Positions 7,786 through 56,619 of a DNA stretch of 64,000 nt are shown here, in pieces. A model generated the notes under the pieces. It did no database searches. It saw only the letters and a list, made by a program, of their open reading frames with translations, and was not told where the DNA came from. The translations under genes were made by a program, and so were the position numbers. Source of the stretch: Siphonodentalium dalli (taxonomy: Eukaryota; Mollusca; Scaphopoda; Gadilida; Siphonodentaliidae); contig CP136065.1 in assembly GCA_032622095.1 (NCBI GenBank), positions 95,301,343 through 95,365,342 on the forward strand, read 5' to 3'. Position 1 is the first letter of the stretch; each line of letters opens with the position of its first letter.

Positions 7786-8415
7786 AGGGAACTGCACAAT
7801 GCATTCCGACCATCCTAACCGGCCTGCGGCCGGAAACTACACAACAACATTGCTGTCATTTGAGGGGTTAAGGAGAGGTGCCACTCGGCCCTTTCGAGAA
7901 TCCCGGGCCAGCCACCCAAACTACTATCTCTCTCTTGTTGTCATTTCTATGTTGAACGTTGTTGGGACAACATGAATATTATCATCGACTATGGACCATT
8001 TTCCTTACACAAAGCGATCTAAATGATCTAGTTTACTAAACTAATCTTATTCCCCTTCTGTACTGGTGAACAAGCGCTTTCATTTTCAACTTGATTCCGA
8101 AATATCGAATATGATCGAGATTCGAATCGACGAATGCACAGCCCGGCCCCATGGATTTATTTTGTCATTTAATATACTTATTAAGTAACTTTCTTTGGTC
8201 GTAACATATATCAGTATATAATAACATCATTTGGACCATATTCATTGGCAACCAAACTGGTTTCAAGCGAAAAATCGCTAGAAAATTCGCAAGATTGTCA
8301 AGATGTATTGCAAAATAATTCAAAGGGTTACGGGTGCGGGTGTACTCCGTTGATGCCCCGTTTGCGCGGAGTTAGAAAAGACGGGAAACGTCGCGTGAAT
8401 AAACCGATTTTTTTA

Positions 8416-8448
8416 GTGGTACAATTGGAAAAATTAGAATTGTACCAC
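8416..8448 (+). other. Stem-loop in LINE 3' UTR (copy B)
   Basis: The same 11-bp stem and 11-nt loop as at 1,399-1,431. The only base difference between the two LINE copies lies directly before it (8,415). Confidence 0.5.
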
Positions 8449-8506
8449 AAAACTGGAACGAGATAGCCATGGTAACTCGGGCCACTGGCCAATCAGGACA
8501 TGGCTT

Positions 8507-8994
8507 TTAAAGGTACTCAACCCGTAAAGCGGGTCCCCATCTCAACAGATTCCAACAACAACAATCCGATCAGAGGGTCCTATATTACTATTTCTTTGGC
8601 TTTGGGGGTAAAAAATATTTGATTCGAGTCGAGGAACCCATCAAACAAAGCTCAGAGTTATTAGATATTGAATTTTGAAAATTCTTATGTTCTCGAGATG
8701 AGTACTGATAACTGCCGTCAATTTGGTAACCTGCTCGAGATTTTACGCCAAAATTCTATTCAAACAGACAAGGATGGATAACTCTATAATCAAGTGGGTA
8801 ATAATAACGAATTTTTGATTGTCTTCTGGGCCAGAAAGAATTCCCGATAATGAAAAATAATAGATTTCTAAAATCGATATCTAACAAATCTGAGCTTTGA
8901 TGGGTGACTTCCTCGACTCGAATCAAATATTTTTGACCGCCGAAGCCATTGAAATAGTAATTGAGAGGAGTTTTATCGGGTTGAGTACCTTTAA
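8507..8994. mobile_element. TTAA-flanked MITE (family M1), 488 bp
   Basis: TTAA at 8,507-8,510 is followed by AGGTACTCAACCCG, and the right end is CGGGTTGAGTACCT followed by TTAA at 8,991-8,994. TTAA duplications with short inverted ends fit piggyBac-like or Kolobok-like transposases acting in trans. The interior has two internally inverted parts (near 8,600-8,660 and 8,870-8,960). It lies 1 bp from the end of LINE copy B. A second copy is at 57,411-57,795 and a left end is at 58,752. Confidence 0.75.
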
Positions 8995-15830: not shown

Positions 15831-17665
15831 TCGGAAAGTGTGGCAAATGGCCCCAAATTCGTAAGTGGCCAGGTGGGCGGAACATTTTGGGACGAAAAGT
15901 TTTTGGGTCGAGTTCGTAAAAGTGGTCCGAAAAAGTGTCCAACCTGTGCTCGGTCCGAGAAAAAATAGAAAATGTGGCAAATGACCACGGGAACATACTC
16001 AGTAAAAAATAACAAAAATTTGGGCGGAAAAAAATTGGGTCGAAACTCGGAAATGCCTCGAAATTAGGCAAATTCTAAAAAATGAAGGGAAAATTGCCCC
16101 AATGGGTCCAAATTTTCAAGTGGCCAGCTGGGCGGAACATTTTGGGACAAAGATATTTTGGGTCGAGTTCGTAAAAGTGGTCCGAAAAAGTGTCGAACCT
16201 GTGCTCGGTCCGATTTTTTGGGGAAAATGTGGCAAACGACGCCAAATTTTCAAGTGGCCAGCTGGGCGGAACATTTTGGGACGAAAAGTTTTTGGGTCGA
16301 GTTCGTAAAAGTGGTCCGAAAAAGTGTCCAACCTGTGCTCGGTCCGAAAAAAAATAGAAAATGTGGCAAATGACCACAGGAACATAATAAGTAAAAAATA
16401 ACAAAAATTTGGGCCGAAACAAATTTGGGTCGAAACGTCCGAATGCATCGAAATTAGGCAAAGTCTAAAAAATGAAGGGAAAATGGCCCCAATGGGTCCA
16501 AATTCTCAAGTGGCCAGCTGGGCGGAACATTTTGGGCCAAAAAAGATTTGGGTCGAGTTCGTAAAAGTGGTCCGAAAAAGTGTCGAACCTGTGCTCGGTC
16601 AGAATTTTTTGGGAAAATGTGGCAAATGACCCATTATTCGTAATTGGCCAAGTGTGCGGAACATTTTGGGCCGAAAAGTTTTTGGGTCGAGTTTGTAAAA
16701 GTGGTCCGAAAAAGTGTCGAAGCTGTGCTCGGTCCGAAATTTTTTAGAAAATGTGGCAAATTACCACGGGAACATACTCAGTAAAAAATAACAAAAATTT
16801 GGGCAAAAATAAAATTGGGTCGAAAGTCGGAAACGCCTCGAAATTAGGCAAAGTCTAAAAAATGAAGGGAAAATGGCCCCAATGGGTCCAAAATGTTCCG
16901 CCCAGCTGGCCACTTGAGAATTTGGACCTATTGGGGCCATTTTCCCTTCATTTATTAGACTTTGCCGAATTTCGAGGCATTTCTGACTTTCGACCCAATT
17001 TTTTTTTTCGGCCAATTTTTTTTTAATTTTTTACTGAGTATTTGCCACATTTTCTAAAAAATTTCGGACCGAGCACAGGTTGGACACTTTTTCGGACCAC
17101 TTTTACGAACTCGACCCAAACATTTTTCGGCCCAAAATGTCTCGGCCAGCTGGTTACTTGCAAATTTTGGGTCATTTGCCACATTTTCCCAAAAAAATCG
17201 GACCGAGCACAGGTTCGACACTTCTTCGGACCACTTTTACGAACTCGACCCAAATCTTTTTCGGCCCAAAATGTTCCGCCCAGCTAGCCACTTGAGAATT
17301 TAGACCCATTGGGACCATTTTCCATTCATTTTTTTAGACTTTGCCTAATTTCGAGGCATTTCCGACTTTCGACCCAATTTATTTTCGGCCCAATTTATTT
17401 TTTATTTTTTACTTAGTATGTTCCTGTGGTCATTTGCCACATTTTCTATTTTTTTTCGGACCGAGCCCCGGGCCACTTGAGAATTTGGCGTCTATGCATT
17501 TGCCACATTTTCCCAAAAAAATCGGACCGAGCACAGGTTCGACACTTCTTCGGACCACTTTTACGAACTCGACCCAAATCTTTTTCGGCCCAAAATGTTC
17601 CGCCCAGCTAGCCACTTGAGAATTTAGACCCATTGGGACCATTTTCCATTTTCCATTTTCCATTT
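15830..17665. repeat. Satellite array that reverses direction at ~16,891
   Basis: Units of about 145 bp (AAGTGGCCAGCTGGGCGG, then TTTTGGGTCGAGTTCGTAAA, then AACCTGTGCTCGGTCCG) are organised in a higher-order period of about 390 bp. They run forward from 15,830 to about 16,890 and in reverse complement from there to 17,665. The inversion falls at CCAAAATGTTCCGCCCAGCT. Short open frames in both strands come from the repeat itself. Confidence 0.85.
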
Positions 17666-36435: not shown

Positions 36436-37360
36436 TTATGCCCCCGACTTGATGTCGGCGGGTATATAGTCGACGTCTCTGTCCGTCCGTCCGTACGTCC
36501 GTCCGTACAAACATTTTGCATTATTGTTCAGCAACCGCTTGGCAGATTTAGCTGTTATTTGGTATGGTGATAGAGCAGCATGCGGGAACAGCTACATGCA
36601 TAGCGCGGGTTTCGTCCACCCATTTTCACCCGAGTTATGGCCCTTTTTTGACTTAGAAAATTCAATTTTGTCCGTCCGTACAAACATTTTGCATTATTGT
36701 TCAGCAACCGCTGGGCAGATTTAGCTGATATTTGGTATGGTGATAGAGCAGCATGGGGGAACAGCTACATGCATAGCGCGGGTTTCGTCCACCAATTTTC
36801 ACCAGAGTTATGGCCCTTTTTTGACTTAGAAAATTCAATTTTGTCCGTCCGTACAAACATTTTGCATTATTGTTCAGCAACCGCTGGGCAGATTTAGCTG
36901 ATATTTGGTATGGTGATAGAGCAGCATGGGGGAACAGCTACATGCATAGCGCGGGTTTCGTCCACCAATTTTCACCAGAGTTATGGCCCTTTTTTTACTT
37001 AGAAAATTCAATTTTTCTCTTGTTTTTTTGGGTTTCCAGATGATAGCGTGAGCTTTGGTGGTATGATTGCAAATCCCGTATTTTTGTGGATCAGTTATAT
37101 GAAAATACATGTCAAGTGCGAATTTGGGTATGATCTGATGATTGTTGCCAGAGTTATGGCCCTTTTTTCAACTTAGAAAATTTGAATTTTCGCTTGTTTT
37201 TGGGTTTCCGGATCAAAAGATATGCCTCCTGACTTTAGTCGGTGGGTTTTTAGTCAACATTTCTGTACGAACTTCTTTTGGAATGGTGATATAGACCTCC
37301 TCGGATATCCGCAGTTTCGTCCATGCTTAATCCGAATTGCTACGGTCGGGGGCAAATGCC
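36436..37360. repeat. TIR element with a 173-bp tandem array
   Basis: The ends are TATGCCCCCGACTTGATGTC (36,437) and GGTCGGGGGCA (about 37,345-37,355). Inside, three tandem 173-bp units start at GTACAAACATTTTGCATTAT (36,505, 36,678 and 36,851), and a fourth is diverged. A (GTCC)n run precedes them. All are non-coding. Confidence 0.75.
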
Positions 37361-37756: not shown

Positions 37757-37764
37757 GTTAATCG

Positions 37765-37955
37765 ACTCCTTAACCACAGCAGAATTGTGGGTAATTTTTC
37801 AGGATTTAGCTGGAAATATGGCTTGTTGCCATTCATCGGAAAGCTCTCACCTAGAGCTTTCCGATGAATGGCAACAAGCCATATTTCCGACTAAATCCTG
37901 AAAAATTACCCATAATTCTGCTGTGGTTAAGGAGTGGATTATTTGGGCCATTACT
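37765..37955. mobile_element. Hairpin MITE family M4, copy 1
   Basis: ACTCCTTAACCACAGCAGAA at 37,765 folds back onto TTCTGCTGTGGTTAAGGAGT ending at 37,935. It is almost a perfect hairpin with the axis near 37,850. The outer end GGGCCATTACTGTA lies on the right; the left outer end is eroded. Confidence 0.8.
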
Positions 37956-38169
37956 GTAAATTGTGTATTAATCCGCTGCCCAATAAACTACCCGTTTTAT
38001 CAAATAAATCCAGTTGGTGAATGCCTCAGTGTCTCCAGTAGTAACTCCCAGGAATTAATTTTTAGCAGAATTAGTGAAGCTGACGAATAACGGTAAAGGC
38101 ATATATGAGTCAAAAAATAGCGCAGTAAAGTTGTAGACCATGATCAAATGTTTACAAGATAACAAAAAC

Positions 38170-38360
38170 TTGTCACATTATTTAAGAATATATAAGAGAA
38201 TACATTGGCCTGACAACATTTACCTTGACCTGGTAAGCTTACCAGTGCATTCTCTTATATATGCAAGGCTTCCTATGGAGACTCGCATAAATAAGAGAAT
38301 GAACCGACACAGGATCTTTAATGCTTCACCAGCTTAGCTCCCATCACGAAAGGGTTAATG
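38170..38360. mobile_element. MITE family M2 copy
   Basis: TATAAGAGAATACATTGGCC to GCTCCCATCACGAAAGGGTT; left part truncated. Confidence 0.6.
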
Positions 38361-38717
38361 ATGAACAATGGACAGCATCAAATGACGAATTCCAAAGCTG
38401 TATAAATAAGGTCTGGAATGATTGGTTCAACATAAAATATGTTATACATGTATGTAACATATTTGTCTATAGGTGAAAAATTATCATATCTATTTCCAAA
38501 CTATGTAGATATATAAATGTAACTTGGAGTTATGGTACTAGTAATTTTTCATAAATGGCAGAAGTTTATAAAAGAAACAATGACATCCCAGTGAAACCCA
38601 CTCTCTGGGAGCTGACTGCCAGGGAGTGTCAGTGTTAAAAGTACTAATTTGCTACATTTGCAGGCTATAATTGTATAATTAAAGGATTGAACACTATGTG
38701 TGACTATTAGGTTTAGT

Positions 38718-38933
38718 ATAGTAATTCCCTAAATAATTGACTCCTTAGCCACAGCAGAATTATGGGTAACTTTTCAGGATTTAGTCGGAAATATGGCTTG
38801 TTGCCGTTCATTGGAAAGCTCTCACTGAGAGCTTTTCGATGAATGGCAACAAGCCATATTTCCAACTAAATCCTGAAAAATTACCCATATTTCTGCTGTG
38901 GTAAAGGATTTGATTATTTACGGCATTACTGTA
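38718..38933. mobile_element. Hairpin MITE family M4, copy 2 (full length)
   Basis: It is bounded by TA, starts AGTAATTCCCTAAATAAT and ends ATTATTTACGGCATTACT next to GTA. It has the same fold as copy 1. The TA at both ends fits a Tc1/mariner-type target. Confidence 0.75.
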
Positions 38934-42259: not shown

Positions 42260-43067
42260 TTGGAGCAGGCCCTTTCTCAGTCTCACTCAAGCTAGACGAA
42301 TATCTCATTACAATCAACTGGGTCTAGAGACTCCAGTACTTACATTGACTTTGGAGATGAACAAGGATCGCCAGCTCGCGACAGCTCATTAATAATCATG
42401 TTCCAAATAAAGTTAATAAAACACTCTTTTGCTGTACATGCGACAATGCCCACATGCAGAGGTAAGTAAGGTAACAATGGCAATTTGCATAAACCTCCAT
42501 CAAGCCGGTCCTGTCGAAGAAAACGGGAGCAAACTGCACAATACATGATTTATTATTCACATGATTTATCATAACCTCAAAAGGCAATTGGGAGGTAGCA
42601 ACAAAATGTACAATAAACAAGAAGGAAATGGTGATATAAATCATATAATGGTAAACAAGCTATTTGTTCTTTGTGATGGTGCCTCATTTGCTACATTCCC
42701 ATGCAATTTACTATGATCTAGAATACAAGCATAGTTTAATTTCTGTCTGATCATTCCCCAATTATGAAGTAACATATATTACCTGTTTTTTTAACCCACA
42801 ACACATACACAGTTAATGTAAAAAGTGCGACGTAACACATGGTTTCCAATAATTAGGTGAGACTGCAGTCAAACACTGGGTGTGGCTTGTGTGAATAAGT
42901 AAAAAAGTGTGAATAGTAATTTCATTTTGCAGGAAGCTATTGATTGGTTGAAGCATCGCATTCTTCGATGTGATGGCCATCTGCGCAATTCCTCCCATTT
43001 GAAATAATTCATTCCGAAGTCCATTGGAGTTTCTAGACCCGTTGATTGTAATGAGATCTTTGTCTAC
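42260..43067. other. Intergenic, nothing recognised
   Basis: No supported coding frame or repeat. Confidence 0.4.
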
Positions 43068-43175
43068 AGTAATGCCCTAATTAATCGACTTCTTAACCAC
43101 AGCAGAATTATGGGTAACTTTTCAGGATTTAGTCGGAAATATGGCTTGTTGCCATTCATCGGAAAGCTCTTTACT
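43068..43175. mobile_element. Hairpin MITE family M4, left half only
   Basis: CAGTAATGCCCTAATTAATC to CATCGGAAAGCTCT, the left arm of the 38,718-38,933 element, stopping at the hairpin axis. The inverted right arm is missing. Confidence 0.7.
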
Positions 43176-43728: not shown

Positions 43729-46700
43729 TTAAAATAAAAGGAAAAATACAGTTGCAATCAAAATGTAGGAAAACCAACTGCTCAGATTGCTAGCTGAGGA
43801 AGTAGATTCTGCCAAATCATCCAGAAGCCTGTGAAATTCCATTCTTTTACTGAACACATCTTCTCTTACTTTGAACTCTGAACCTATATTCATATATGAT
43901 TTTTGGCCCCCATATTCTGGCCATCTTGTTAATCCAGCACCATTTGGATTTCTGAAATAGAAGGAGGTGTATGCATGAGATCTTTCTGTTGACTGGTATC
44001 ACATATGATATTTTTAAAAGCTGATCTATCTCTTCCCAGAAAGTTTTATATATATTACATTGTATAAAATAATATATATGAATTGAGTACACCTGTCCAG
44101 AAAAGTTTCTATCATTCAATGTTATTTAGATTTTTTTATCACATCAGTAAAAAGAAGGACAAATCTAGCTTGTTACCTGTCTCAGTCACGACAAGTTGCA
44201 TTCAAACTTTAGATTTCACCATGATCTTAATAAACCACTATTGTATGCCTTTATGGAGGTATGATATATTCAATTATATATGTATTTTATTTAAAAAAAT
44301 AGTAAGTTGTAGTTTTGAAATTGTGATTTATAAACATGATGATGTTGTTGTTGTAATTGTGACCCGGAAGAGATAGACCATCTTTAAAACTGTTATTGTC
44401 ATTTTGGCTCAGTTCGAATCAAAAGACAATATACGAGACAATTGTTTCTAAAATGACATGGTATCAGCAAATCTTTGGTCTGAAAAATATGTCATGTGTT
44501 TGAAACTTACCCATAATGTGGCATAGCCATTAGGTGTTGAATCTGGTAATTTTTTGGACACAACAGTCTTGAGCAATGTCTATGTATGCATGCTACCAGC
44601 CTACAACCCATGTAGTTCGGGTTATCAACTTGTGCTATATGTTACAATAGCAAGAACTGACTCCAGAACTTTTGGAGCTCATTCAGTATACTTCCAAAGT
44701 GAATTATGAATTGTTTATTATCATATATAGTCAACATAGAAGTTGCAGCACGCTATATATAAGAAGATAGAGGGCCTCGTTCGCGTCACATCTAAAAATA
44801 GAATCTTTGGGGTCTAAAATTGGTTGTACTAAAATATTCCCAAAATAACAAAACCCAAAAAAAAATTCAAAACTTCAAAAATTTATTTTTTTCCAAAAAT
44901 TATTTTTTCCAAAAAATAAAAAAATTTCCAAACTTCCAAATTATCAAAACCCCAAAATTTCCAAACTTCCAAATTATCAAAACCCTCAAAATTATTTCTC
45001 TAAAAAAAGTTTAAATAAAAAATTTATAACGAGTTTTCGGTTTCTGATAAACTCGATATTAAAAAATGTCGAATGTTAAATTATTTGCGCGTAATATCTT
45101 TCGTAATATTTTTTGTTCAAATATTTTTCATGAATTTATTAATCGATGTTTAGAAATAGCTTTATTGGACATTGTGACCATCGATATGAATGCATACATT
45201 CCAGTGTATTATCGGACGCAGTTCATATAATTGTCATACCTGAAAATAGACACTATTACTTTTACATAAATAATAAAGAGCGTTTATTCTTTACACTCTC
45301 TCTATCCCATATGACAGGTGTGTATTATCGTGAATTATTGGAAGTTTTGAGATGTACTATGTTCAATCCCTAACGGTCGAAAATTGTAATGTGAAATTAC
45401 AACCCTCCAGAATGAATTGTCATATTCGCTGTACACGCAATCACACGCGACATTGGTTGTAACAATGTGTCTTTCACACCTTTGCTTTACCAAATGAATT
45501 ATATTATTTCCCCGGTCACAGTTATATGCTATTCAGAAAACATATCGATTTAATGTCTGAACAAACGAGTTAGTATCAATTAAGGTTGATAAACTGTGTC
45601 ATTCACACGATCATTCACACGATAATTAGTTAGCCAAAACATGCATACGTCCAGGACACTCAATTATAGAAATTGCTTTGATGACATTGTTATAACAACA
45701 TTACGTAATAACCAATTATCGCCCCCACATTCATACTTACGATTTGGACATTTTATCAGTTTATCACGTGATCACTAAATGTGGCAATCGGGTATCCTCC
45801 GATGCCTGCAATATATTATTTATAATAATTGGACTCATTGATCTCACGTGAATAATACTCTTAGTTGTTCCAATAAAATAGTTATCAAATTCGATCACCA
45901 ATAGATTTGACTGTGGAATGTAATGACCTTTAACTTATTTATCGATCTAAAGGGACACTCATTATGAATGAATGTTAACAATACAAGCGCACGAATGAAG
46001 AGCGTTGAACATATACGAAATTACTACACGAATGAATTGAACCTTGAAATTTATATTTCACATCTTACCAACAACAGCTACAGACATAATCATAGTATTA
46101 TACTGTCTTGCATGTACACACGCTATGACATCATTAAAGGTGGACAATCCACTCAAGGTGTGGCAACAGATACGGACATAGGCATAGTGTTATACAGTCT
46201 TCTATGTACCCACGCTATGACACCCTTAACGTACATTGGATGTTAGGTATATGACTCTTGAGTATGCACCAATCAATGAGCAAATGAGCAAAAAACTGAG
46301 CAAATGAGCAAAAAATGAGCAAATGAGCAAGAAAATGAGCAAATGAGCAAGAAAATGAGCAAATGAGCAATAAAAATGAGCAAATGAGCATAAAAATGAG
46401 CAAATGAGCAAGAAAATGAGCAAATGAGCAATAAAAATGAGCAAATGAGCATAAAAATGAGCAAATGAGCAAGAAAATGAGCAAATGAGCAAGAAAATGA
46501 GCAAATGAGCATAAAAATGAGCAAATGAGCAAGAAAATGAGCAAATGAGCAATAAAAATGAGCAAATGAGCATAAAAATGAGCAAATGAGCAAGAAAATG
46601 AGCAAATGAGCAAGAAAATGAGCAAATGAGCAATAAAAATGAGCAAATGAGCAAAAAAAATGAGCAAATGAGCAAGAAAATGAGCAAATGAGCAATAAAA

Positions 46701-49700
46701 ATGAGCAAATGAGCAATAAAAATGAGCAAATGAGCAAAAAAATGAGCAAATGAGCAAGAAAATGAGCAAATGAGCAAGAAAATGAGCAAATGAGCAATAA
46801 AAATGAGCAAATGAGCAATAAAAATGAGCAAATGAGCAATAAAAATGAGCAAATGAGCAAAAAAATGAGCAAATGAGCAAAAAAATGAGATGTAACATTA
46901 TATCACTGTTATTGTATCAATTGATAGGTTCAGACAAGTTCGATGTTTAGAAAAGAAAAGTTACCTATAATTCTGCTGTGGTTAAGCAGTCCATTATTTA
47001 GGGCATACCTGTATGTAGGCCTATCAGTGGATGAATAGTCTGTCGGAGAAGTACTGTGTAGACAGGTCTTGACGGTAAGAGAGTCAGAAGAGAAGTGAAG
47101 GCTCGGCTATTAAAACATAGTAATGCGATAGCGAACATCAAACGAGTCTGCGCACGCATATCTGTCAAAAGGATACAATAGCAGTCATTGGTCAATTTAT
47201 CCCCGGTGTCAGCTCAGTACCCAATCGGGACGAAGCCGAAGGTCAACTCATTTTTTTTTGCTCATTATAGTACGTCACTTGGACATTTTATCAGTTTATC
47301 ACGTGATCACTAAATGTGGCAATCGGGTATCCACCGATGCCTGCAATTTATTATTTATAATAATTGGACTCATTGATCTCACGTAAATAATACTCTTAGT
47401 TGTTCCAATAAAATAGTTATCAAATTCGATCACCAATAGATTTGACTGTGGAATATAATGACCTTTAACTTATTTATCGATCTATGTTAGAACATGGTCT
47501 TAACAAAAAACTTGACCATAACAAAAATTACCTTACATTTATGCATGAATCTAATTAGACCATACGTAAATATTGTCAGCTTATCGTCTGATGAGCAAAT
47601 CCGATGTTTATCAAAAATAGTACAACTTCCAGTTGGTAATTACTCTTACGAATGAAGAGCGTTGAACATATACGAAATTACTACACGAATGAACTGAAAT
47701 TTATATTTTCACATCTTACCAACAACAGATACAGACATAGTCATAGTGTTATACTATCTTACATGTACCCATGCTATGACATCATTCGAAGGGGCAATAC
47801 ACTCAAGGAGTTAAAGTGACACGAAACAAGGGACGTGATGTAATATTGGTGTTTGAATCTTAAAGGAACACAAGACACTCTAAAGGGGCACTCATTATGA
47901 ATGAATGTTAACAATACAAGCACACGAATGAAGAGCGTTGAACATATACAAAATTACTACACGAATGAATTGAACCTTGAAATTTATATTTCACATCTTA
48001 CCAACAACAGCTACAGGCATTATCATAGGGTTATACTGTCTTGCATATACACACGCTATGACATCATTAAAGGCGGACAATCCACTCACGATGTGACAAC
48101 AGATACAGACATAGGCATAGTGTTATACAGTCTTCTATGTACCAATGCTATGACATAATTAAAGGGGGATAATACACGCACGGTGTGGAATGTTAAAGTG
48201 ACACGCGGTAAGGGACGTGATGTAATATTGGTGAAACCCCCTCCCCACTTATAGATATATAACGAAGACGAGAATAACATGTTGATGAAGTTTATTGAAA
48301 TTTAATCATTGTCTGAATCTTCGACCGTTAGATTTACTTCTAAGAGTTTCTTGAATTTTCTCATCGCTTCATCTGCAGCCCATTCATTATTATATCCGTG
48401 TTTGGTCAGTTTGACCATTTTCTTCATGATCATGGTATGTATACGTGATGTTTTCAATCGATACTGGTATTCTATTAATCGTCTATAACTTTTGAGAAAC
48501 AGAGCAAACTCTGTGTCGATGGTATCCTCTTTTCCCGACATGCTCTCATCTCCCGAAATGCTCTCTTCTTCTTTCACATCATTGGTGACGCGTTTCATCA
48601 TACTTTTGAATGTGTCCATCTCGTTGACACATCGCGCAGCTTTCTTAAGACCGAATACCGTTCTACTACCGACGCCATTACCATCTTCTGAATCTGATAG
48701 CGTTCCACGTTCATCTTCATCTGAATCTAGAACCGCTTCGTCAGATTCATCGGTATCTTCTCCGAAGAGAGTTGGTTTTGTCTCGGACATAACTCCGTGT
48801 TTAATCTGTTTATGTCTTTGTAGATTGTAGTTCGTCGATAAAATAATGCCACATAAATCACACCCGTGCATTATCGCGAATTATTGGAAGAACCATCACT
48901 CTTATAAGTAGCGATAAAAAGAGAGAATAAGGTGTGGTATACAACCGTCGCTCTAAGAGTACGTTCGTCCCGGGGGGCTAGGGTATAGATATTTGACCGC
49001 CGGTGATTCAATTAATGCCAATTTATCAGTATGGTACTCTATGTATTCATTCATGATTTGGCTAATCGTATGACACTGATCTTTTCATTTTCTTCTTATT
49101 ATTAGACAAACCTCCATCAGACACTCTCTTGTTGGTTTGTTTGGACGCTTTACGAGTGTTTGTCAACTTATTTGCTGCAACTTCAGCCTTAGCCATTTCA
49201 ATCGCTTGAGCGATGGGTGTCACCACGTTAATAATTGGTTTTAGAACGTCTTCTTCACTATCACTATTTTTAGTTCTGTCAATAAAGTATCGACCCTGAT
49301 TATCTGGTATTAACTTCCCATCAACCATATCTCTGAAATGTTTTCGCCACATTTCAAGATCTGCTGGAATATACGGGATCGACATGTTTCTTCAAAATGT
49401 ACAAGTCACTCTTTTTTCTGCATTTTATTTTAGAAAGTTTATCGCCTCTTATAAAAATCGATTATTGCATCTAAAAATAGAATCTTTGGGTCTAAAATTG
49501 GTTGTACTAAAATATTCCCAAAAACCCAAAACTTCAAAAATTTCAAAAAACTTCAAAAATTTCAAAAAACTTCAAAAATTTCAAAAACTTCAAAAATTTC
49601 AAAAATTTCAAAAACTTCAAAAATTTCAAAAACTTCAAAAATAAGACCCCGCCGGCGGCGGGCGGCGGCGGCACCGCCGGCGGCGCCAGTTGTTGTTGTT

Positions 49701-52700
49701 GTTGTTGGTGGTGTTGTTGTTGGTGGTGTTGTTGTTGTTGTTGTTGTTGTTGTGGCGGCGGCGGCGACGGCATTGCGGTATTTTACTGGGGCGACGGCGC
49801 CGCCGCCGCCGCCGGGGTCCGCCGCCGGCGGACCCCGCAGTAAAATACCGCAATGCCGCCGCCGCCGCCGCCGCCACAACAACACCACCAACAACAACAC
49901 CACCAACAACAACAACAACAACTGGCGCCGCCGGCGGTGCCGCCGCCGCCGGGGTCCGCCGCCGGCGGGGTCTTATTTTTGAAGTTTTTGAAATTTTTGA
50001 AGTTTTTTGAAGTTTTTGAAATTTTTGAAATTTTTGAAGTTTTTGAAATTTTTGAAGTTTTTTGAAATTTTTGAAGTTTTTTGAAATTTTTGAAGTTTTG
50101 GGTTTTTGGGAATATTTTAGTACAACCAATTTTAGACCCAAAGATTCTATTTTTAGATGCAATAATCGATTTTTATAAGAGGCGATAAACTTTCTAAAAT
50201 AAAATGCAGAAAAAAGAGTGACTTGTACATTTTGAAGAAACATGTCGATCCCGTATATTCCAGCAGATCTTGAAATGTGGCGAAAACATTTCAGAGATAT
50301 GGTTGATGGGAAGTTAATACCAGATAATCAGGGTCGATACTTTATTGACAGAACTAAAAATAGTGATAGTGAAGAAGACGTTCTAAAACCAATTATTAAC
50401 GTGGTGACACCCATCGCTCAAGCGATTGAAATGGCTAAGGCTGAAGTTGCAGCAAATAAGTTGACAAACACTCGTAAAGCGTCCAAACAAACCAACAAGA
50501 GAGTGTCTGATGGAGGTTTGTCTAATAATAAGAAGAAAATGAAAAGATCAGTGTCATACGATTAGCCAAATCATGAATGAATACATAGAGTACCATACTG
50601 ATAAATTGGCATTAATTGAATCACCGGCGGTCAAATATCTATACCCTAGCCCCCCGGGACGAACGTACTCTTAGAGCGACGGTTGTATACCACACCTTAT
50701 TCTCTCTTTTTATCGCTACTTATAAGAGTGATGGTTCTTCCAATAATTCGCGATAATGCACGGGTGTGATTTATGTGGCATTATTTTATCGACGAACTAC
50801 AATCTACAAAGACATAAACAGATTAAACACGGAGTTATGTCCGAGACAAAACCAACTCTCTTCGGAGAAGATACCGATGAATCTGACGAAGCGGTTCTAG
50901 ATTCAGATGAAGATGAACGTGGAACGCTATCAGATTCAGAAGATGGTAATGGCGTCGGTAGTAGAACGGTATTCGGTCTTAAGAAAGCTGCGCGATGTGT
51001 CAACGAGATGGACACATTCAAAAGTATGATGAAACGCGTCACCAATGATGTGAAAGAAGAAGAGAGCATTTCGGGAGATGAGAGCATGTCGGGAAAAGAG
51101 GATACCATCGACACAGAGTTTGCTCTGTTTCTCAAAAGTTATAGACGATTAATAGAATACCAGTATCGATTGAAAACATCACGTATACATACCATGATCA
51201 TGAAGAAAATGGTCAAACTGACCAAACACGGATATAATAATGAATGGGCTGCAGATGAAGCGATGAGAAAATTCAAGAAACCCTTAGAAGTAAATCTAAC
51301 GGTCGAAGATTCAGACAATGATTAAATTTCAATAAACTTCATCAACATGTTATTCTCGTCTTCGTTATATATCTATAAGTGGGGAGGGGGTTTCACCAAT
51401 ATTACATCACGTCCCTTACCGCGTGTCACTTTAACATTCCACACCGTGCGTGTATTATCCCCCTTTAATTATGTCATAGCATTGGTACATAGAAGACTGT
51501 ATAACACTATGCCTATGTCTGTATCTGTTGTCACATCGTGAGTGGATTGTCCGCCTTTAATGATGTCATAGCGTGTGTATATGCAAGACAGTATAACCCT
51601 ATGATAATGCCTGTAGCTGTTGTTGGTAAGATGTGAAATATAAATTTCAAGGTTCAATTCATTCGTGTAGTAATTTTGTATATGTTCAACGCTCTTCATT
51701 CGTGTGCTTGTATTGTTAACATTCATTCATAATGAGTGCCCCTTTAGAGTGTCTTGTGTTCCTTTAAGATTCAAACACCAATATTACATCACGTCCCTTG
51801 TTTCGTGTCACTTTAACTCCTTGAGTGTATTGCCCCTTCGAATGATGTCATAGCATGGGTACATGTAAGATAGTATAACACTATGACTATGTCTGTATCT
51901 GTTGTTGGTAAGATGTGAAAATATAAATTTCAGTTCATTCGTGTAGTAATTTCGTATATGTTCAACGCTCTTCATTCGTAAGAGTAATTACCAACTGGAA
52001 GTTGTACTATTTTTGATAAACATCGGATTTGCTCATCAGACGATAAGCTGACAATATTTACGTATGGTCTAATTAGATTCATGCATAAATGTAAGGTAAT
52101 TTTTGTTATGGTCAAGTTTTTTGTTAAGACCATGTTCTAACATAGATCGATAAATAAGTTAAAGGTCATTATATTCCACAGTCAAATCTATTGGTGATCG
52201 AATTTGATAACTATTTTATTGGAACAACTAAGAGTATTATTTACGCGAGATCAATGAGTCCAATTATTATAAATAATAAATTGCAGGCATCGGTGGATAC
52301 CCGATTGCCACATTTAGTGATCACGTGATAAACTGATAAAATGTCCAAGTGACGTACTATAATGAGCAAAAAAAAATGAGTTGACCTTCGGCTTCGTCCC
52401 GATTGGGTACTGAGCTGACACCGGGGATAAATTGACCAATGACTGCTATTGTATCCTTTTGACAGATATGCGTGCGCAGACTCGTTTGATGTTCGCTATC
52501 GCATTACTATGTTTTAATAGCCGAGCCTTCACTTCTCTTCTGACTCTCTTACCGTCAAGACCTGTCTACACAGTACTTCTCCGACAGACTATTCATCCAC
52601 TGATAGGCCTACATACAGGTATGCCCTAAATAATGGACTGCTTAACCACAGCAGAATTATAGGTAACTTTTCTTTTCTAAACATCGAACTTGTCTGAACC

Positions 52701-55700
52701 TATCAATTGATACAATAACAGTGATATAATGTTACATCTCATTTTTTTGCTCATTTGCTAATTTTTTTGCTCATTTGCTCATTTTTTTGCTCATTTGCTC
52801 ATTTTTATTGCTCATTTGCTCATTTTTATTGCTCATTTGCTCATTTTCTTGCTCATTTGCTCATTTTCTTGCTCATTTGCTCATTTTTTTGCTCATTTGC
52901 TCATTTTTATTGCTCATTTGCTCATTTTTATTGCTCATTTGCTCATTTTCTTGCTCATTTGCTCATTTTTTTGCTCATTTTTATTGCTCATTTGCTCATT
53001 TTCTTGCTCATTTGCTCATTTTCTTGCTCATTTGCTCATTTTTATGCTCATTTGCTCATTTTTATTGCTCATTTGCTCATTTTCTTGCTCATTTGCTCAT
53101 TTTTATGCTCATTTGCTCATTTTTATTGCTCATTTGCTCATTTTCTTGCTCATTTGCTCATTTTCTTGCTCATTTGCTCATTTTTTGCTCATTTGCTCAG
53201 TTTTTTGCTCATTTGCTCATTGATTGGTGCATACTCAAGAGTCATATACCTAACATCTCATGTACGTTAAGGGTGTCATAGCGTGGGTACATAGAAGACT
53301 GTATAACACTATGCCTATGTCCGTATCTGTTGCCACACCTTGAGTGGATTGTCCACCTTTAATGATGTCATAGCGTGTGTACATGCAAGACAGTATAATA
53401 CTATGATTATGTCTGTAGCTGTTGTTGGTAAGATGTGAAATATAAATTTCAAGGTTCAATTCATTCGTGAAGTAATTTCGTATATGTTCAACGCTCTTCA
53501 TTCGTGCGCTTGTATTGTTAACATTCATTCATAATGAGTGTCCCTTTAGATCGATAAATAAGTTAAAGGTCATTACATTCCACAGTCAAATCTATTGGTG
53601 ATCGAATTTGATAACTATTTTATTGGAACAACTAAGAGTATTATTCACGTGAGATCAATGAGTCCAATTATTATAAATAATATATTGCAGGCATCGGAGG
53701 ATACCCGATTGCCACATTTAGTGATCACGTGATAAACTGATAAAATGTCCAAATCGTAAGTATGAATGTGGGGGCGATAATTGGTTATTACGTAATGTTG
53801 TTATAACAATGTCATCAAAGCAATTTCTATAATTGAGTGTCCTGGACGTATGCATGTTTTGGCTAACTAATTATCGTGTGAATGACACAGTTTATCAACC
53901 TTAATTGATACTAACTCGTTTGTTCAGACATTAAATCGATATGTTTTCTGAATAGCATATAACTGTGACCGGGGAAATAATATAATTCATTTGGTAAAGC
54001 AAAGGTGTGAAAGACACATTGTTACAACCAATGTCGCGTGTGATTGCGTGTACAGCGAATATGACAATTCATTCTGGAGGGTTGTAATTTCACATTACAA
54101 TTTTCGACCGTTAGGGATTGAACATAGTACACACCTGTCATATGGGATAGAGAGAGTGTAAAGAATAAACGCTCTTTATTATTTATGTAAAAGTAATAGT
54201 GTCTATTTTCAGGTATGACAATTATATGAACTGCGTCCGATAATACACTGGAATGTATGCATTCATATCGATGGTCACAATGTCCAATAAAGCTATTTCT
54301 AAACATCGATTAATAAATTCATGAAAAATATTTGAACAAAAAATATTACGAAAGATATTACGCGCAAATAATTTAACATTCGACATTTTTTAATATCGAG
54401 TTTATCAGAAACCGAAAACTCGTTATAAATTTTTTATTTAAACTTTTTTTAGAGAAATAATTTTGAGGGTTTTGATAATTTGGAAGTTTGGAAATTTTGG
54501 GGTTTTGATAATTTGGAAGTTTGGAAATTTTTAAATTTTTTGGAAAAAATAATTTTTGGAAAAAAATAAATTTTTGAAGTTTTGAATTTTTTTTTGGGTT
54601 TTGTTATTTTGGGAATATTTTAGTACAACCAATTTTAGACCCCAAAGATTCTATTTTTAGATGTGACGCGAACGAGGCCCTCTATCTTCTTCTTATATAA
54701 ACAAACACAGTCATATGCATACATGCCTATCAGTCAAACTTGCATATATATTCTTTCTGTGATCGTATGAGTCTATTAAAAGTATTATGGATATGTATAA
54801 CTGCATATTGTTAACGCTTACCCTGTTTTCGCGAAGTTTGTCCAGTATGACATCATCTTCCTGGATATATCTTGATCTTCTTGACTTGCCGATGTGTTTG
54901 TTGGATATAGCCCTTGTTCGCTCAGTCCAAACACATAAAATATCTCGTCAGCATGGTTTGCCCCCTTGAACCACGGAGCCTGTGCCTGTATGTATCTGTA
55001 TTCCGGCGTATGATCAAACAAGTACTGAAATGTGTTGGATCTATTGGCCTGGGAGTGAGATAGTGCCGTGGCAACAGTCGGCGCTGTATAAACTATATCT
55101 CCGAAAAGCTCAACGGCCAACCTTGTCTGGTTATCGGCATCATTATTGTCATCTGCGCGTTTGCAAAGGACAGACGACAAATAATCTCGTCCGAAGAAAT
55201 CTCTCGACATAGCGGGTCCAACTTTCTCACACAATATGTTTCTAGATATCTGCTTCTCTGGGTCAAAGTCGAACAGATCTTTGAAAGACCTAATCTTGAG
55301 ATACAAAATGAGACCTTCTGCGTTATTGTTCCCAAATAGCCGATCTGTTTCAGCAAATTGCTCGAAGGACTTGGAACTTTTATCTTTAAGCAGATCTATT
55401 GGATGGCGCGGTAGGAAGTCTCCATCGACAACGGGTCCGAATGGAGGGTTAAAGGATATAATACCTGGCTTACTCAGTGTTTTAATGGCAGTTAATATCT
55501 CTGACGTAGTTTTACCTCTGAGACATTCGACAAACGACTCCATGTCACCTTTTGCGGCTGAGATGTCAGGGCAACGCAAAGCAAGTCCCGTCCTTCTCGT
55601 GGCATCTATGACGGCCTTTCTCCCGATAACAGCAGTTGGTCCCAACGCGACGCCACTTTGACATATTGCCCTTTGAAATAAATTATTGTGTGGTGACAGA

Positions 55701-56386
55701 ACCTGCAGTCCGACTGCCATTGCGCCAGCAGACTCCCCGAACACTGTAATTGCGGATGGATTCCCACCGAACGCGTTTATGTTTTCCTTAACCCATTTGA
55801 TGGCCAGTTTCTGATCCCATAGCCCGTTGTTGCCTTGGAAACGTTGTTCCTTGTCGTCCAGAGCCATGAACCCAAACACGCCAACGCGGTAGTTAATAGT
55901 AACGACGATGACGTCACCAGTCAAAGCAAGATAAGAACCATCGAACATGTTAGCTTGGCCGACATTATACCCTCCACCATGAATCCACACCATCACCGCT
56001 CTGTTTAAAGTCCATGTATCGTTCGATGTCCGTGGAACGAACAAATTTAGATACAAGCAGTCTTCACTAATTTCTAAATTCGGTAGAAACCTTTTGTCGT
56101 TTCCAGATAAATTCTGCGCACATGACGGTCCGAATGACGTTGCATTGTAAACCCGTGTCCACGATTTCGCTGCTTCCGGTTTCGCGAACCTCAAATCTTC
56201 TATGGGAGGCTCCGCAAAAGGCACATTTAGGAATTTATAAACGACTTCTCCTTGTACATTGTCCTCAATCCCTCTCAGTTCTCCAAGTGTTGTTGTCACT
56301 ACCGTGTCAGTTTGAACCAAAGGAACTAGAAACTGATTCAACAAGAGAATGGTGGCTGCCAACAGCCAAGAACTTAGGGCTCCCAT
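43729..56386 (-). CDS. Type-B carboxylesterase, secreted, probably GPI-anchored (two exons)
   Basis: Coding parts on the minus strand are 56,386-54,822 and 43,951-43,729, joined in phase 2, total 595 residues. Start MGALSSW at 56,386 begins a signal peptide. Visible: oxyanion HGGG (136-139), Ser219 in GESAG, Glu357 in NNAEG, His478 in GANHADE, and cysteine pairs 89/110 and 272/288. The triad is complete, so the enzyme should hydrolyse esters; cholinesterase-like and neuroligin-like relatives share this fold. Exon 2 supplies RWPEYG, normal after the WTNFAKTG end of exon 1. It ends with small residues then a hydrophobic tail (WFSYILIATVFFLLF), typical of a GPI signal. Donor GTAAGC and acceptor CTATTTCAG are good. 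The intron holds the giant palindrome. Confidence 0.88.
44756..44761. other. Target-site duplication TATATA, left
   Basis: TATATA directly precedes the element start AGAAGATAGAGGG. The partner is at 54,694-54,699. Low complexity means chance cannot be excluded. Confidence 0.55.
44790..44845 (+). repeat. Subterminal repeat T, outer left copy
   Basis: ATCTAAAAATAGAATCTTTG followed by GGTTGTACTAAAATATTCCC. It also occurs at 49,469-49,527 (same orientation) and inverted at 50,101-50,158 and 54,608-54,662. Each copy is followed inward by AT-rich CAAAACTTCAAAAATTT-type sequence. Confidence 0.8.
45146..45441 (+). pseudogene. Outer-arm small ORF, left copy, disrupted
   Basis: Corresponds to the 94-codon frame at 54,022-54,306. 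A 32-bp insertion near 45,333-45,364 shifts the frame and ends it after 75 codons. Whether either copy is a real gene is unknown. Confidence 0.4.
45744..45949. repeat. Repeat R1, left arm copy 1
   Basis: A block of about 205 bp (TTGGACATTTTATCAGTTTA to TTATTTATCGATCTA) present twice in each arm: here and 47,278-47,484, mirrored at 53,547-53,752 and 52,143-52,349. Confidence 0.8.
45955..46227 (+). repeat. Repeat R2, left arm copy 1 (contains a 92-codon frame)
   Basis: GAATGAAGAGCGTTGAACAT and an internal ~90-bp tandem unit (ATAGTRTTATACTGTCTT...). The frame starts MNVNNTSARMKSVEHI. The internal tandem units are read in different frames, so the open frame may be incidental. Related copies are at 47,652-47,819 and 47,885-48,200. 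Confidence 0.6.
46270..46888. repeat. Minisatellite (ATGAGCAAATGAGCA), left arm
   Basis: About 30 copies of a ~20-bp unit, AAATGAGCAAATGAGCAAGA with AG/AT/AA variants. The unit has no stop codon on the minus strand in any frame, and its length is not a multiple of three, so all three minus frames stay open; I do not call these genes. The right-arm counterpart is about 131 bp shorter. Confidence 0.9.
46957..47015. mobile_element. Hairpin MITE family M4, right half, in left arm
   Basis: AATTCTGCTGTGGTTAAG...ATTATTTAGGGCATACCTGT matches the right arm of 38,718-38,933. Mirrored at 52,612-52,670. Confidence 0.6.
47278..47484. repeat. Repeat R1, left arm copy 2
   Basis: See 45,744-45,949; only a few substitutions apart. 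Confidence 0.8.
47652..47819 (+). repeat. Repeat R2, left arm copy 2 (55-codon frame)
   Basis: Starts MKSVEHIRNYYTNEL. A 6-bp deletion relative to the other copies keeps the frame. Too short to judge as a gene. Confidence 0.5.
47885..48200 (+). repeat. Repeat R2, left arm copy 3 (85-codon frame)
   Basis: Starts MNVNNTSTRMKSVEHI; mirrored at 51,427-51,742. It ends in a module GTGACACGCGGTAAGGGACG that also follows copy 2. Confidence 0.6.
48302..48871 (-). CDS. C2H2 zinc-finger protein of the palindromic element, left copy
   Basis: 189 residues. One zinc finger at the N-terminus (C4-x2-C7-x12-H20-x4-H25). Then an acidic Ser/Asp/Glu region (residues 38-66 and 100-116) and a basic, helical C-terminal half (residues ~118-178, SYRRLIEYQYRLKTSRIHTM). 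It is probably a DNA-binding or virion/nuclear factor of the element; the function is unknown. The ATG lies 36 bp after a TTATAAGAGTG box, and AATAAA begins 5 bp after the stop (48,296-48,291). It differs from the right-arm copy at residue 176 (Leu here, Pro there). Single C2H2 proteins are known from some Polinton-type genomes; this match is by character, not by search. Confidence 0.75.
   Translation of the reverse strand: MHGCDLCGIILSTNYNLQRHKQIKHGVMSETKPTLFGEDTDESDEAVLDSDEDERGTLSDSEDGNGVGSRTVFGLKKAARCVNEMDTFKSMMKRVTNDVKEEESISGDESMSGKEDTIDTEFALFLKSYRRLIEYQYRLKTSRIHTMIMKKMVKLTKHGYNNEWAADEAMRKFKKLLEVNLTVEDSDND
48897..48908 (-). promoter_or_regulatory. TATA-like box of the left zinc-finger gene
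   Basis: TTATAAGAGTG on the minus strand, about 36 bp before the ATG at 48,871. A similar box precedes the 107-aa gene. Confidence 0.5.
49062..49385 (-). CDS. 107-aa protein of the palindromic element, left copy
   Basis: Identical in sequence to the right-arm copy. Residues 12-21 are MWRKHFRDMV, followed by a GRYFID stretch (31-36), VVTPIAQAIEMAKAE (54-68) and a basic C-terminus (NNKKKMKRS) that could be a nuclear signal. I do not recognise a named domain. The aromatic N-terminal motif followed by a VTP...A...A helix gives a weak impression of small proteins in Polinton/adintovirus genomes, which I cannot confirm. It is the first gene out from the central hairpin, about 190 bp before the zinc-finger gene and on the same strand. 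Confidence 0.7.
   Translation of the reverse strand: MSIPYIPADLEMWRKHFRDMVDGKLIPDNQGRYFIDRTKNSDSEEDVLKPIINVVTPIAQAIEMAKAEVAANKLTNTRKASKQTNKRVSDGGLSNNKKKMKRSVSYD
49443..49454 (-). promoter_or_regulatory. TATA-like box of the left 107-aa gene
   Basis: TTATAAGAGGCG on the minus strand, 69 bp before the ATG at 49,385. Confidence 0.45.
49469..50158. repeat. Central inverted repeat with GC-rich triplet core
   Basis: Bounded by subterminal repeat T in inverted orientation (49,469-49,527 and 50,101-50,158). Moving inward: CAAAAATTTCAAAAACTT units, then a GC-rich core (49,644-49,973) of GCC/GGC triplets, (GTT)n and its complement, and the short inverted pair GCATTGCGGTATTTTACTG. The axis is near 49,815. 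Long Gln/Asn/Arg-rich frames here are products of the triplets. The core probably forms a strong hairpin or cruciform. Confidence 0.85.
50173..50184 (+). promoter_or_regulatory. TATA-like box of the right 107-aa gene
   Basis: TTATAAGAGGCG, 69 bp before the ATG at 50,242. It is nearly the same as the box before the zinc-finger gene. Confidence 0.45.
50242..50565 (+). CDS. 107-aa protein of the palindromic element, right copy
   Basis: Same protein as 49,062-49,385, with no residue difference. It starts with MSIPYIPADLEMW and ends with a basic tail. The two copies diverge from the central hairpin, so each half of the palindrome is a complete small transcription unit. Function unknown; an element-encoded structural or DNA-binding role is possible. 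Identical translation in both arms shows either recent origin or continuing gene conversion. Confidence 0.7.
   Translation: MSIPYIPADLEMWRKHFRDMVDGKLIPDNQGRYFIDRTKNSDSEEDVLKPIINVVTPIAQAIEMAKAEVAANKLTNTRKASKQTNKRVSDGGLSNNKKKMKRSVSYD
50720..50730 (+). promoter_or_regulatory. TATA-like box of the right zinc-finger gene
   Basis: TTATAAGAGTG, 36 bp before the ATG at 50,756. It matches the box at 50,173 in its first nine bases. Confidence 0.5.
50756..51325 (+). CDS. C2H2 zinc-finger protein of the palindromic element, right copy
   Basis: 189 residues. Finger residues are C4, C7, H20 and H25, then an acidic Ser/Asp/Glu-rich segment and a basic helical C-terminal half. The single residue difference from the left copy is Pro176 in place of Leu176 (CCC against CTC). 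It has its own TATA-like box and a poly(A) signal AATAAA at 51,331-51,336, so it looks like a complete gene. Role unknown; DNA binding through the finger is likely from the family. Confidence 0.75.
   Translation: MHGCDLCGIILSTNYNLQRHKQIKHGVMSETKPTLFGEDTDESDEAVLDSDEDERGTLSDSEDGNGVGSRTVFGLKKAARCVNEMDTFKSMMKRVTNDVKEEESISGDESMSGKEDTIDTEFALFLKSYRRLIEYQYRLKTSRIHTMIMKKMVKLTKHGYNNEWAADEAMRKFKKPLEVNLTVEDSDND
51331..51336 (+). terminator. Poly(A) signal of the right zinc-finger gene
   Basis: AATAAA 5 bp after the stop codon; mirrored at 48,291-48,296 on the minus strand. Confidence 0.6.
51427..51742 (-). repeat. Repeat R2, right arm copy 3
   Basis: Mirror of 47,885-48,200, with the same 85-codon frame on the minus strand. 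Confidence 0.6.
51808..51975 (-). repeat. Repeat R2, right arm copy 2
   Basis: Mirror of 47,652-47,819. Confidence 0.5.
52143..52349. repeat. Repeat R1, right arm copy 2
   Basis: Mirror of 47,278-47,484; one visible difference is TTTACGCGAGATC here against the mirrored TTTACGTGAGATC. Confidence 0.75.
52612..52670. mobile_element. Hairpin MITE family M4 half, right arm
   Basis: Mirror of 46,957-47,015 (AGGTATGCCCTAAATAATGG and CTTAACCACAGCAGAATTAT). Confidence 0.6.
52738..53222. repeat. Minisatellite (TGCTCATTTGCTCAT), right arm
   Basis: Mirror of 46,270-46,888 but about 131 bp shorter, with differing variant order. Three plus-strand frames are open for the same reason as on the left. Confidence 0.9.
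53269..53541 (-). repeat. Repeat R2, right arm copy 1 (92-codon frame)
   Basis: Mirror of 45,955-46,227. It differs in the translation at a few residues (FTNEL for YTNEL, end MRC for IGC). Confidence 0.6.
53547..53752. repeat. Repeat R1, right arm copy 1
   Basis: Mirror of 45,744-45,949. Confidence 0.75.
54022..54306 (-). CDS. Possible 94-aa protein of the palindromic element, right arm
   Basis: The minus frame starts MFRNSFIGHCDHRYECIH and contains an aromatic/hydrophobic middle (IPENRHYYFYINN, LFFTLSLSHMTG) and several Cys. No recognised domain. The left-arm counterpart is broken by a 32-bp insertion, so the frame is either dispensable in one copy or not a gene. It points inward, opposite to the other genes of its arm. 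Confidence 0.35.
   Translation of the reverse strand: MFRNSFIGHCDHRYECIHSSVLSDAVHIIVIPENRHYYFYINNKERLFFTLSLSHMTGVYYVQSLTVENCNVKLQPSRMNCHIRCTRNHTRHWL
54694..54699. other. Target-site duplication TATATA, right
   Basis: It directly follows the element end CTCTATCTTCTTCT. It is the partner of 44,756-44,761. The right terminus has one extra AAG/CTT triplet relative to the left. Confidence 0.55.
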
Positions 56387-56619
56387 TTTTTCAGCGCGAC
56401 AAAATACGCTTAAGGATAACCCGGCAGATAAATATATCAATTATCTTTCTTTTGGCTAACAAAATACTATAAATGTTTCTGCCGACAGTGCATCCTGTTC
56501 AGTTCAGTTTGCGCTGTATTAGTTTTACTTGCATGCCCGATCGCTCAAGAATAAAACAACGTAGACTCCGTAAATAAAATAAGCATAGCAGGGTGTCGTC
56601 ACAGTGTGTTTCCTTGCTT

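Follow-up and report, generated by a model that had tools for sequence, protein, structure and literature searches.

How does a stretch of animal chromosome come to carry two mirrored arms of nearly 5 kb, each with the same two genes? The question is raised by a palindrome in the genome of the scaphopod mollusc Siphonodentalium dalli, which was analysed in a window of 64,000 nucleotides, i.e., C5:95301343-95365342 in a genome of 2.227 Gb and 9 contigs. The palindrome spans positions 44762-54693 of this window (9,932 bp, with arms of approx. 4.9-5.05 kb), and it is best read, with a probability of about 0.82, as a Maverick/Polinton derivative that is palindromic and non-autonomous, belongs to a large family and would have been made by copy-back and inserted in trans. 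Termini shared with Mavericks, a 6-bp duplication, an AG start with a tandem end motif and sequence derived from a Maverick gene were all found in it; since it has neither PolB nor integrase, it is classed as a non-autonomous derivative and not as a Maverick in the strict sense. An earlier description made from the letters of the window, here called the sequence-only reading, had already proposed a non-autonomous, head-to-head form of such an element, and the shared termini, the 6-bp duplication, the lack of its own PolB and integrase and the inverted arms bear this out.

The palindrome and its axis

The features of the element are listed below by position in the window, with the strand where there is one (aa, amino acids; L numbers designate other stretches of the same genome).

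44756-44761: left target-site duplication, TATATA, its 6-bp size backed by other copies
44762-45743, + strand: left outer terminal inverted repeat, Maverick-type, beginning with AGAAGA (two AGA units)
44789-44811, + strand: T core (CATCTAAAAATAGAATCTTTGGG), outer copy
45321-45352, + strand: 32 bp exclusive to the left arm, from the comparison of the arms
46275-46889: 20-bp minisatellite of the left arm
46955-47013: piece of approx. 59 bp common to a dispersed host repeat (mirror at approx. 52614-52672)
48302-48871, - strand: gene of the 189-aa C2H2 zinc-finger protein, left copy
48995-49054, - strand: 20-codon remnant of a capsid-position gene, left copy, placed as the mirror of the aligned right copy
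49062-49385, - strand: 107-aa PW-position gene, left copy
49468-49490, + strand: inner T core (T'), left
49644-49977: GC-rich axis hairpin, axis at approx. 49813
50137-50159, - strand: inner T core (T'), right
50147-50181, + strand: junction of T' with TATAAGAG, the promoter-like stretch of the 107-aa gene
50242-50565, + strand: 107-aa PW-position gene, right copy, 74% identical to Maverick L148
50573-50632, + strand: 20-codon remnant of the capsid-position gene (MNEYIEYH...), with a deletion scar common to L155, L198 and L199
50756-51325, + strand: gene of the 189-aa C2H2 zinc-finger protein, right copy, with homologs in L155 and L151-L153
51394-53752: non-coding repeat blocks and minisatellite (52738-53221) of the right arm
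53753-54693, - strand: right outer terminal inverted repeat, Maverick-type, ending in (TCT)3
54694-54699: right target-site duplication, TATATA

The inner parts of the arms match without gaps over 2801 bp (46841-49641 and 49986-52786) with only 3 substitutions, one of which falls in the minisatellite, and both genes of each arm lie within this inner 2.8 kb. Farther out, the arms are distinguished by 5 substitutions, a 32-bp indel, a 12-bp indel (one unit) and the length of the minisatellite, which is 615 bp in the left arm and 484 bp in the right. Two inverted arms of approx. 5 kb are thus present as described before; their mirroring at constant coordinates turned out to be approximate only, since the coordinate sum drifts by approx. 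175. The same two genes were indeed found in each arm: the 107-aa open reading frame (ORF) shows no difference between the arms and the 189-aa ORF a single one, P/L at residue 176. The 32 bp exclusive to the left arm were probably lost from the right one, because the Maverick repeat of L150 seems to carry them (by eye, an ORF continues there). The idea that these 32 bp are a copied promoter was dropped, given that this Maverick repeat appears to have them.

The GC-rich hairpin that had been named as the spacer forms the axis (approx. 330 bp) and is far more stable than its shuffles, with a folding energy of -213.5 kcal/mol versus -94.8 (standard deviation 4.1) over 100 of them. The 23-bp T core present at each end of the element is repeated in the same direction beside the axis; no further copies were found in the window at up to 3 mismatches, and exact matches in viral contigs numbered 0. 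The T'/promoter junction of the axis has 97+96 copies genome-wide at up to 2 mismatches. Among the 100 junction matches listed there are 41 inverted pairs, with spacers of 134-2079 bp (median 646 bp), and 18 unpaired junctions, and in this set no neighbouring junctions less than 3 kb apart were seen in any non-inverted orientation. L152 has this promoter and leader too, in front of a zinc-finger gene instead of PW, the sequences diverging just upstream of the start codon. The T'/TATA module at the axis probably serves as a bidirectional promoter, driving the first gene in either arm. It was also observed that six of the window's seven CTA(W4)TAG sites, which we take to be MEF2-like, lie inside the element (44792, 49264, 49471, 50147, 50354 and 54651), two of them within the copies of the 107-aa gene.

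Lone palindromes are classic artefacts of assembly, produced when a read folds back on itself. Here, however, the arms differ by indels and substitutions, the host DNA on either side is unrelated, and palindromes of this structure are present at many other loci, where the 41 inverted junction pairs and many exact duplications were found; the palindrome is therefore not an assembly fold-back. It was confirmed as real, and the chance of an artefact is negligible.

Ends, Mavericks and the family of palindromes

The ends of the element begin with AG, as previously noted, with AGAAGA on the left and one more AGA unit on the right, and the 6-bp direct repeat reported around it is TATATA on both sides. 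On its own this repeat is ambiguous, since it equals its own reverse complement and chance matches of 6 bp between flanks have a probability of 0.04% with the boundary fixed, rising to 1.5% when the boundaries may shift by 3 each way; the size of the duplication was settled by other copies, which show exact, mostly non-palindromic 6-bp duplications. The end pattern CTCGTTNNNNNCACATCTAAAAATAG was found 912 times in forward and 894 times in reverse orientation genome-wide (0 for a backward control), a count that does not amount to exactly 900 elements, because some ends carry two tandem copies. The pairing of ends into elements rests on the first 100 end matches listed (C1, 0-108 Mb). These yielded 41 paired elements and 9 unpaired ends; 4 of the elements are shorter than 6 kb, 27 measure 6-12 kb, 1 measures 13.5 kb and 9 measure 15-18 kb, so that among the matches listed the 6-12 kb elements outnumber the 15-18 kb ones 3:1 (27 vs 9 paired). 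When 60-base ends were taken from all nine 15-18 kb elements and from ten of the 27, exact 6-bp duplications were detected in 9/9 and 9/10, respectively, versus 0/342 for control combinations of ends from different elements; in the tenth 6-12 kb element one end is offset by a base, with CTTGGC on both sides (by eye). In a first sample of nine palindromes, 7 had exact 6-bp duplications, 1 had one mismatch and 1 had a 4-base match only.

The end motif is (AGA)2, or (AGT)2 in one 15-18 kb and two 6-12 kb elements, the latter being the commonest end motif published for vertebrate Mavericks according to a passage of PMC8097293. In one of the ten 6-12 kb elements the first 40 nucleotides are identical to those of a 15-18 kb element. 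The trinucleotide end repeats of Mavericks have been tied to jumping-back in protein-primed replication (passages of PMC8097293 and PMC4974454); a single additional AGA unit at one of their ends, the outcome that end slippage would give, was seen in the window element and in C1:16701741. A further case, the uneven AGA count of C1:80481147, was discarded, as its flank accounts for it.

Judged from their coding content, the 15-18 kb elements that were opened are Mavericks. Provided that the three copies from which they come are collinear, the pieces L146-L150 jointly leave almost no offset of a 16-kb element uncovered, and together they encode an rve integrase (5e-15) with a chromodomain, a family-B polymerase (DNA_pol_B_2, 3.9e-29), a P-loop ATPase (weak AAA/Pox_A32 matches) and an adenain-like protease, whose Peptidase_C5 match (5.7e-4) is slightly below Pfam's cut-off. 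No Pfam match was found for a 145-aa or a 420-aa gene and no PDB match for the latter; both are taken as capsid genes by position only. The full-length relative with the same termini that the sequence-only reading had envisaged was in this way recovered, as far as pieces of three elements show, with its PolB, its integrase and 9/9 6-bp duplications, and with its capsid genes assigned in this positional sense. The stretch 53753-54690 of the window, the mirror of the left outer repeat, is 88-97% identical, in pieces, to the 16-kb Maverick ends in L146, L149 and L150. No inverted repeat of at least 100 bp was found within any of the pieces L146-L150, of which L147 spans its element's midpoint. 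A gene for a PC4-like protein (transcriptional coactivator p15) was also observed inside a Maverick (L147, 38-649, - strand, 4.5e-15).

A genome-wide search for the 107-aa and 189-aa genes, another suggestion made earlier, uncovered further copies at many loci. At least 42 matches to the gene pair were listed (40 of 1699 candidates scored), and 14 loci, the window's included, are inverted pairs; ten of twelve seemingly single loci were fetched and proved to be 9 two-ended palindromes (6.5-11.6 kb) and 1 one-sided copy. Among the end matches listed, 15 of the 27 elements of 6-12 kb were inspected and 14 are palindromic, a figure composed of 8/8 sampled centres, 3/4 halves and 3 elements with inverted gene or junction pairs (22406963, 74648133 and 97456289 on C1). 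The eight centres (2.4 kb each) were chosen from the 27 in map order, ignoring content; their arms are 95-99% identical where they align, and in 6/8 they meet without a gap. The genes found there are PW and the 189-aa gene (L195, L198 and L199), a zinc-finger gene and the 189-aa gene (L194), a zinc-finger/ATPase gene (L196 and L200), and a Maverick 167-aa gene with a zinc finger (L197); none was recognised in L201. Four other elements were read just beyond the midpoint, and L151-L153 are mirrored about the axis over the portion read. A 589-aa protein is encoded in L153; it is made of C2H2 fingers, a poly-Q stretch and an A32-type ATPase domain (Pox_A32 1.2e-5; approx. 31% identity to the Maverick ATPase), and it ends in a region similar to the 189-aa protein; the frame of this type of protein is split in L151 and L152. 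From these sequences, the palindromes are a large, gene-swapping family whose content varies among members. The size of this family, the Maverick origin of the 107-aa gene and the other genes in other palindromes go beyond the earlier description. As a separate observation, C8:179696094-179706862 holds two inverted gene pairs approx. 7.5 kb apart, possibly adjacent or nested insertions.

The palindromes could alternatively have formed in the chromosome, either by inverted duplication or by recombination of two inverted copies after integration. In favour of this, arms do change independently: arm-specific deletions occur, and 5/9 of the fetched palindromes (C4_184M, C2_186M, C1_216M, C1_206M and C9_85M) have arms of clearly unequal length, the axis being placed by assumption for two of the five. 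Against it, the window's host flanks are not mirrored, and intact 6-bp duplications adjoin both mirror-image ends at most loci tested, which indicates that the palindromes were inserted as palindromes. A chromosomal origin is therefore very improbable. Slightly less credit still is given to an element with hairpin telomeres of the parvovirus or poxvirus kind, in which the axis would be a replicated hairpin end joining two monomers. The very stable fold of the axis and the gapless meeting of the arms in 6/8 centres would agree with it, and one such end is indeed common to the 97+96 copies of one axis junction; on the other hand, the outer ends, the duplications and the captured gene are all of Maverick type, and the genes beside the axis differ among palindromes, so that no single telomere is common to all of them. 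No Rep/NS1-type or telomere-resolvase gene was seen in the few pieces read, where no search was aimed at them.

Genes of the arms

The 107-aa protein matches a 109-aa Maverick protein of L148 with 74% identity (E 2e-48); in L148 the gene order is 145 aa, 109 aa, 420 aa and adenain-like protease. In vertebrate Mavericks the order is integrase, minor capsid, PW, major capsid and protease, according to a passage of PMC8097293; the order in L148 agrees with a PW gene flanked by the two capsid genes, although the 145-aa and 420-aa genes have their capsid identity by position only. By its similarity, the 107-aa gene is a Maverick gene in the PW place, and it is named PW by position. Downstream of it are the first 20 codons of the 420-aa capsid-position gene and then a deletion joint, which is identical in L198, L199 and the 3.3-kb non-palindromic L155. 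The simplest reading of these sequences is that one deletion derivative arose first and that palindromes with different axes were formed afterwards.

The same anatomy would be expected if a Maverick with terminal repeats of 4-5 kb had lost its core genes, leaving the two repeats back to back, and PMC12220804 mentions Polinton-like viruses whose repeats range in length from hundreds to thousands of bp. However, the similarity of the Maverick pieces to the arm's outer end spans only approx. 0.8-1.1 kb, and the 107-aa gene lies deep inside L148, its sole occurrence among L146-L150. The terminal repeats of vertebrate Mavericks measure 46-1447 bp (PMC8097293), and the scar beside the 107-aa gene is also present in L155, so that the deletion can exist without a palindrome. 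Such a parent is considered unlikely.

In 1000 simulated arms with the same trinucleotide make-up, no 189-aa ORF was found (the longest had 185), while 146 contained an ORF of at least 107 aa and 9 contained two such; since ORFs of that length are frequent in simulated arms, the 107-aa ORF is convincing mainly through its relatives. The ratio of nonsynonymous to synonymous substitutions (dN/dS) is 0.33 between the 107-aa gene and the Maverick gene. Open frames are kept in 15/18 (107 aa) and 16/19 (189 aa) of the fetched full-length copies, window included, copies of either gene below 95% of the length being left out. The 189-aa gene gave no match in the Maverick pieces L146-L150. It could still turn out to be of Maverick origin, because L146-L150 sample only part of the Maverick lineages of this genome and zinc-finger genes are reported to occur in some adintoviruses (a passage of PMC11071296).

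Sequence searches with the 107-aa or the 189-aa protein alone found no relatives, and in PHROGs the two proteins had no match better than E 0.14 and 0.041. When viral contigs were scanned with degenerate DNA patterns built on 107-aa protein motifs, 66 and 31 stretches came up, with no relative among their translations as judged by eye. A profile of three PW-type sequences detected P0001 (E 2.3e-12, 54% identity over 58%, Lys-rich tail) and P0002 (E 3.1e-9, 39% over 75%) in a protein collection, and none in the viral contigs. Single-sequence structure models were poor, with a mean predicted local distance difference test (pLDDT) of 66.5 and 47.5, and a fold search with the pLDDT 66.5 model gave 372 matches at E <= 10 and zero at E <= 0.001. 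Only the 107-aa and 189-aa ORFs stand out in the window's arm. PolB and integrase reside in the 16-kb relatives, and no capsid, protease or packaging ATPase gene was found in the window element apart from the 20-codon capsid-position remnant.

Proposed copy-back and possible satellites

According to the copy-back reading, the Maverick polymerase of the same genome would start copying the element from its ends by protein priming; during strand displacement, the growing strand would switch onto itself, so that the resulting palindrome would have one and the same terminus on either side, and the Maverick integrase would then insert this palindrome in trans with a 6-bp duplication. We infer copy-back, trans-mobilisation and any satellite role, the movement in trans being read from the termini and duplications. 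Copy-back (snap-back) defective genomes are known from protein-primed replicons, e.g., the symmetric DNA of incomplete adenovirus particles and a hairpin derivative of the yeast linear killer plasmid. A palindrome with an identical terminus at both ends, as in these genomes, is present here. In 2/8 centres a single-copy stretch occupies the axis (615 bp in L195 and 168 bp in L198). In L195 one arm ends approx. 580 bp before the axis-side end of the other, leaving the 615-bp stretch, a structure that fits copy-back; a deletion in one arm at a later stage, however, would look no different, in L195 as in L198. The mate of an arm is its best match in 12/20 arms by k-mers, and in 8/14 and 14/16 by two blocks (ties counted); arms sharing subfamily variants suggest that both are renewed together, a tendency that is not decisive.

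Several points weigh against this reading. The L195 junction has a few filler bases and no clear microhomology; the arms of one element are not always mutual closest relatives; and palindromes have other sources that would resemble copy-back, namely recombination of inverted repeats and gene conversion that renews the arms symmetrically. C4_184M and C8_91M of the first sample are without a clean 6-bp duplication, and L154 (C1:44005020-44009019), an element of approx. 7.5 kb with the same ends, has no palindrome or recognised gene in the half read. The Maverick pieces come from three 16-kb elements, none read end to end, and the replicative origin is inferred, no replication intermediate or transposition having been observed.

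With the Mavericks/Polintons (adintovirus-like) of the same genome the window element shares termini, trinucleotide end repeats, the 6-bp duplication and one core-module gene (PW position); it differs in being palindromic, in its size (approx. 10 kb versus approx. 16 kb) and in lacking PolB, integrase, protease and a full capsid gene. Like copy-back genomes, it is palindromic, has one terminus in common to its two ends and has lost internal genes; unlike them, it is inserted in the chromosome and has many diversified copies with mostly open gene frames. Galileo has very long inverted repeats and 7-bp duplications, and Vesanto/bidna-like viruses have few genes per segment, the segments not being palindromic throughout. 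Compared by description, the fold-back transposon Galileo belongs to the P superfamily (part of PMC4168063), unlike a Maverick-type element; Vesanto/bidna-like viruses have several segments with similar inverted terminal repeats (part of PMC8363768), a likeness at the level of description. Teratorn, a fusion of a herpesvirus with piggyBac, is virus-like, and its long inverted repeats carry end-like modules on the inner side, as here, but it involves another virus, transposase and size and keeps a unique region between the repeats (passages of PMC6431247).

The surroundings of the element are animal DNA, with LINE-type, BTB-BACK, Kelch and carboxylesterase ORFs. In the carboxylesterase gene (54818-56440, - strand) an exon breaks off near 54822 at a site resembling a splice donor, and a last exon that would fit (NPNG...RWPEYGG) was seen by eye near 43923 on the same strand (-), beyond the palindrome; on these grounds the element probably sits in the last intron of this gene, filling most of it. 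The approx. 59 bp per arm (46955-47013 in the left) are common to a dispersed, partly palindromic host repeat with copies at 37759-38933 and 43065-43170, and therefore host DNA may have been captured by the element or its parent. Elsewhere in the window, 1-1492 and 7018-8509 are 99.9% identical copies that overlap or lie beside LINE-type endonuclease and reverse transcriptase ORFs, and tandem arrays occupy 15833-17650 (units of approx. 390/134 bp) and 36497-37015 (units of 173 bp).

A further and more tentative proposal, possible but on balance doubtful, is that the palindromes are true satellites of an endogenous animal DNA virus and not dead defective copies. Their own genes (the 189-aa zinc finger, the fusion of zinc finger, poly-Q and A32-type packaging ATPase, and the stolen PW) would be kept and swapped and would divert Maverick replication and packaging towards a smaller genome of palindromic form, which would itself be rebuilt in every round, keeping both arms matched. 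The mostly open frames, the dN/dS of PW and the absence of the 189-aa gene from the Mavericks read speak for this view; the dN/dS of the 189-aa gene (0.61-0.71, with no significance test) counts against it, as does the fact that similar copies may simply be young and that no replication or particles were seen. Among the matches listed from the open full-text literature, a source whose coverage leaves out most subscription papers, no palindromic or non-autonomous Polintons were found; exact phrases for such elements matched 0 papers, and looking there for defective genomes of protein-primed viruses yielded nothing useful.

The palindromes preserve, in an animal genome, natural traces of what protein-primed replication may bring about, and they bear on the extrachromosomal copying of Mavericks. 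With them, the question of whether endogenous animal DNA viruses have satellites of their own becomes testable. If the satellite proposal were true, they would be an animal counterpart of phage satellites.

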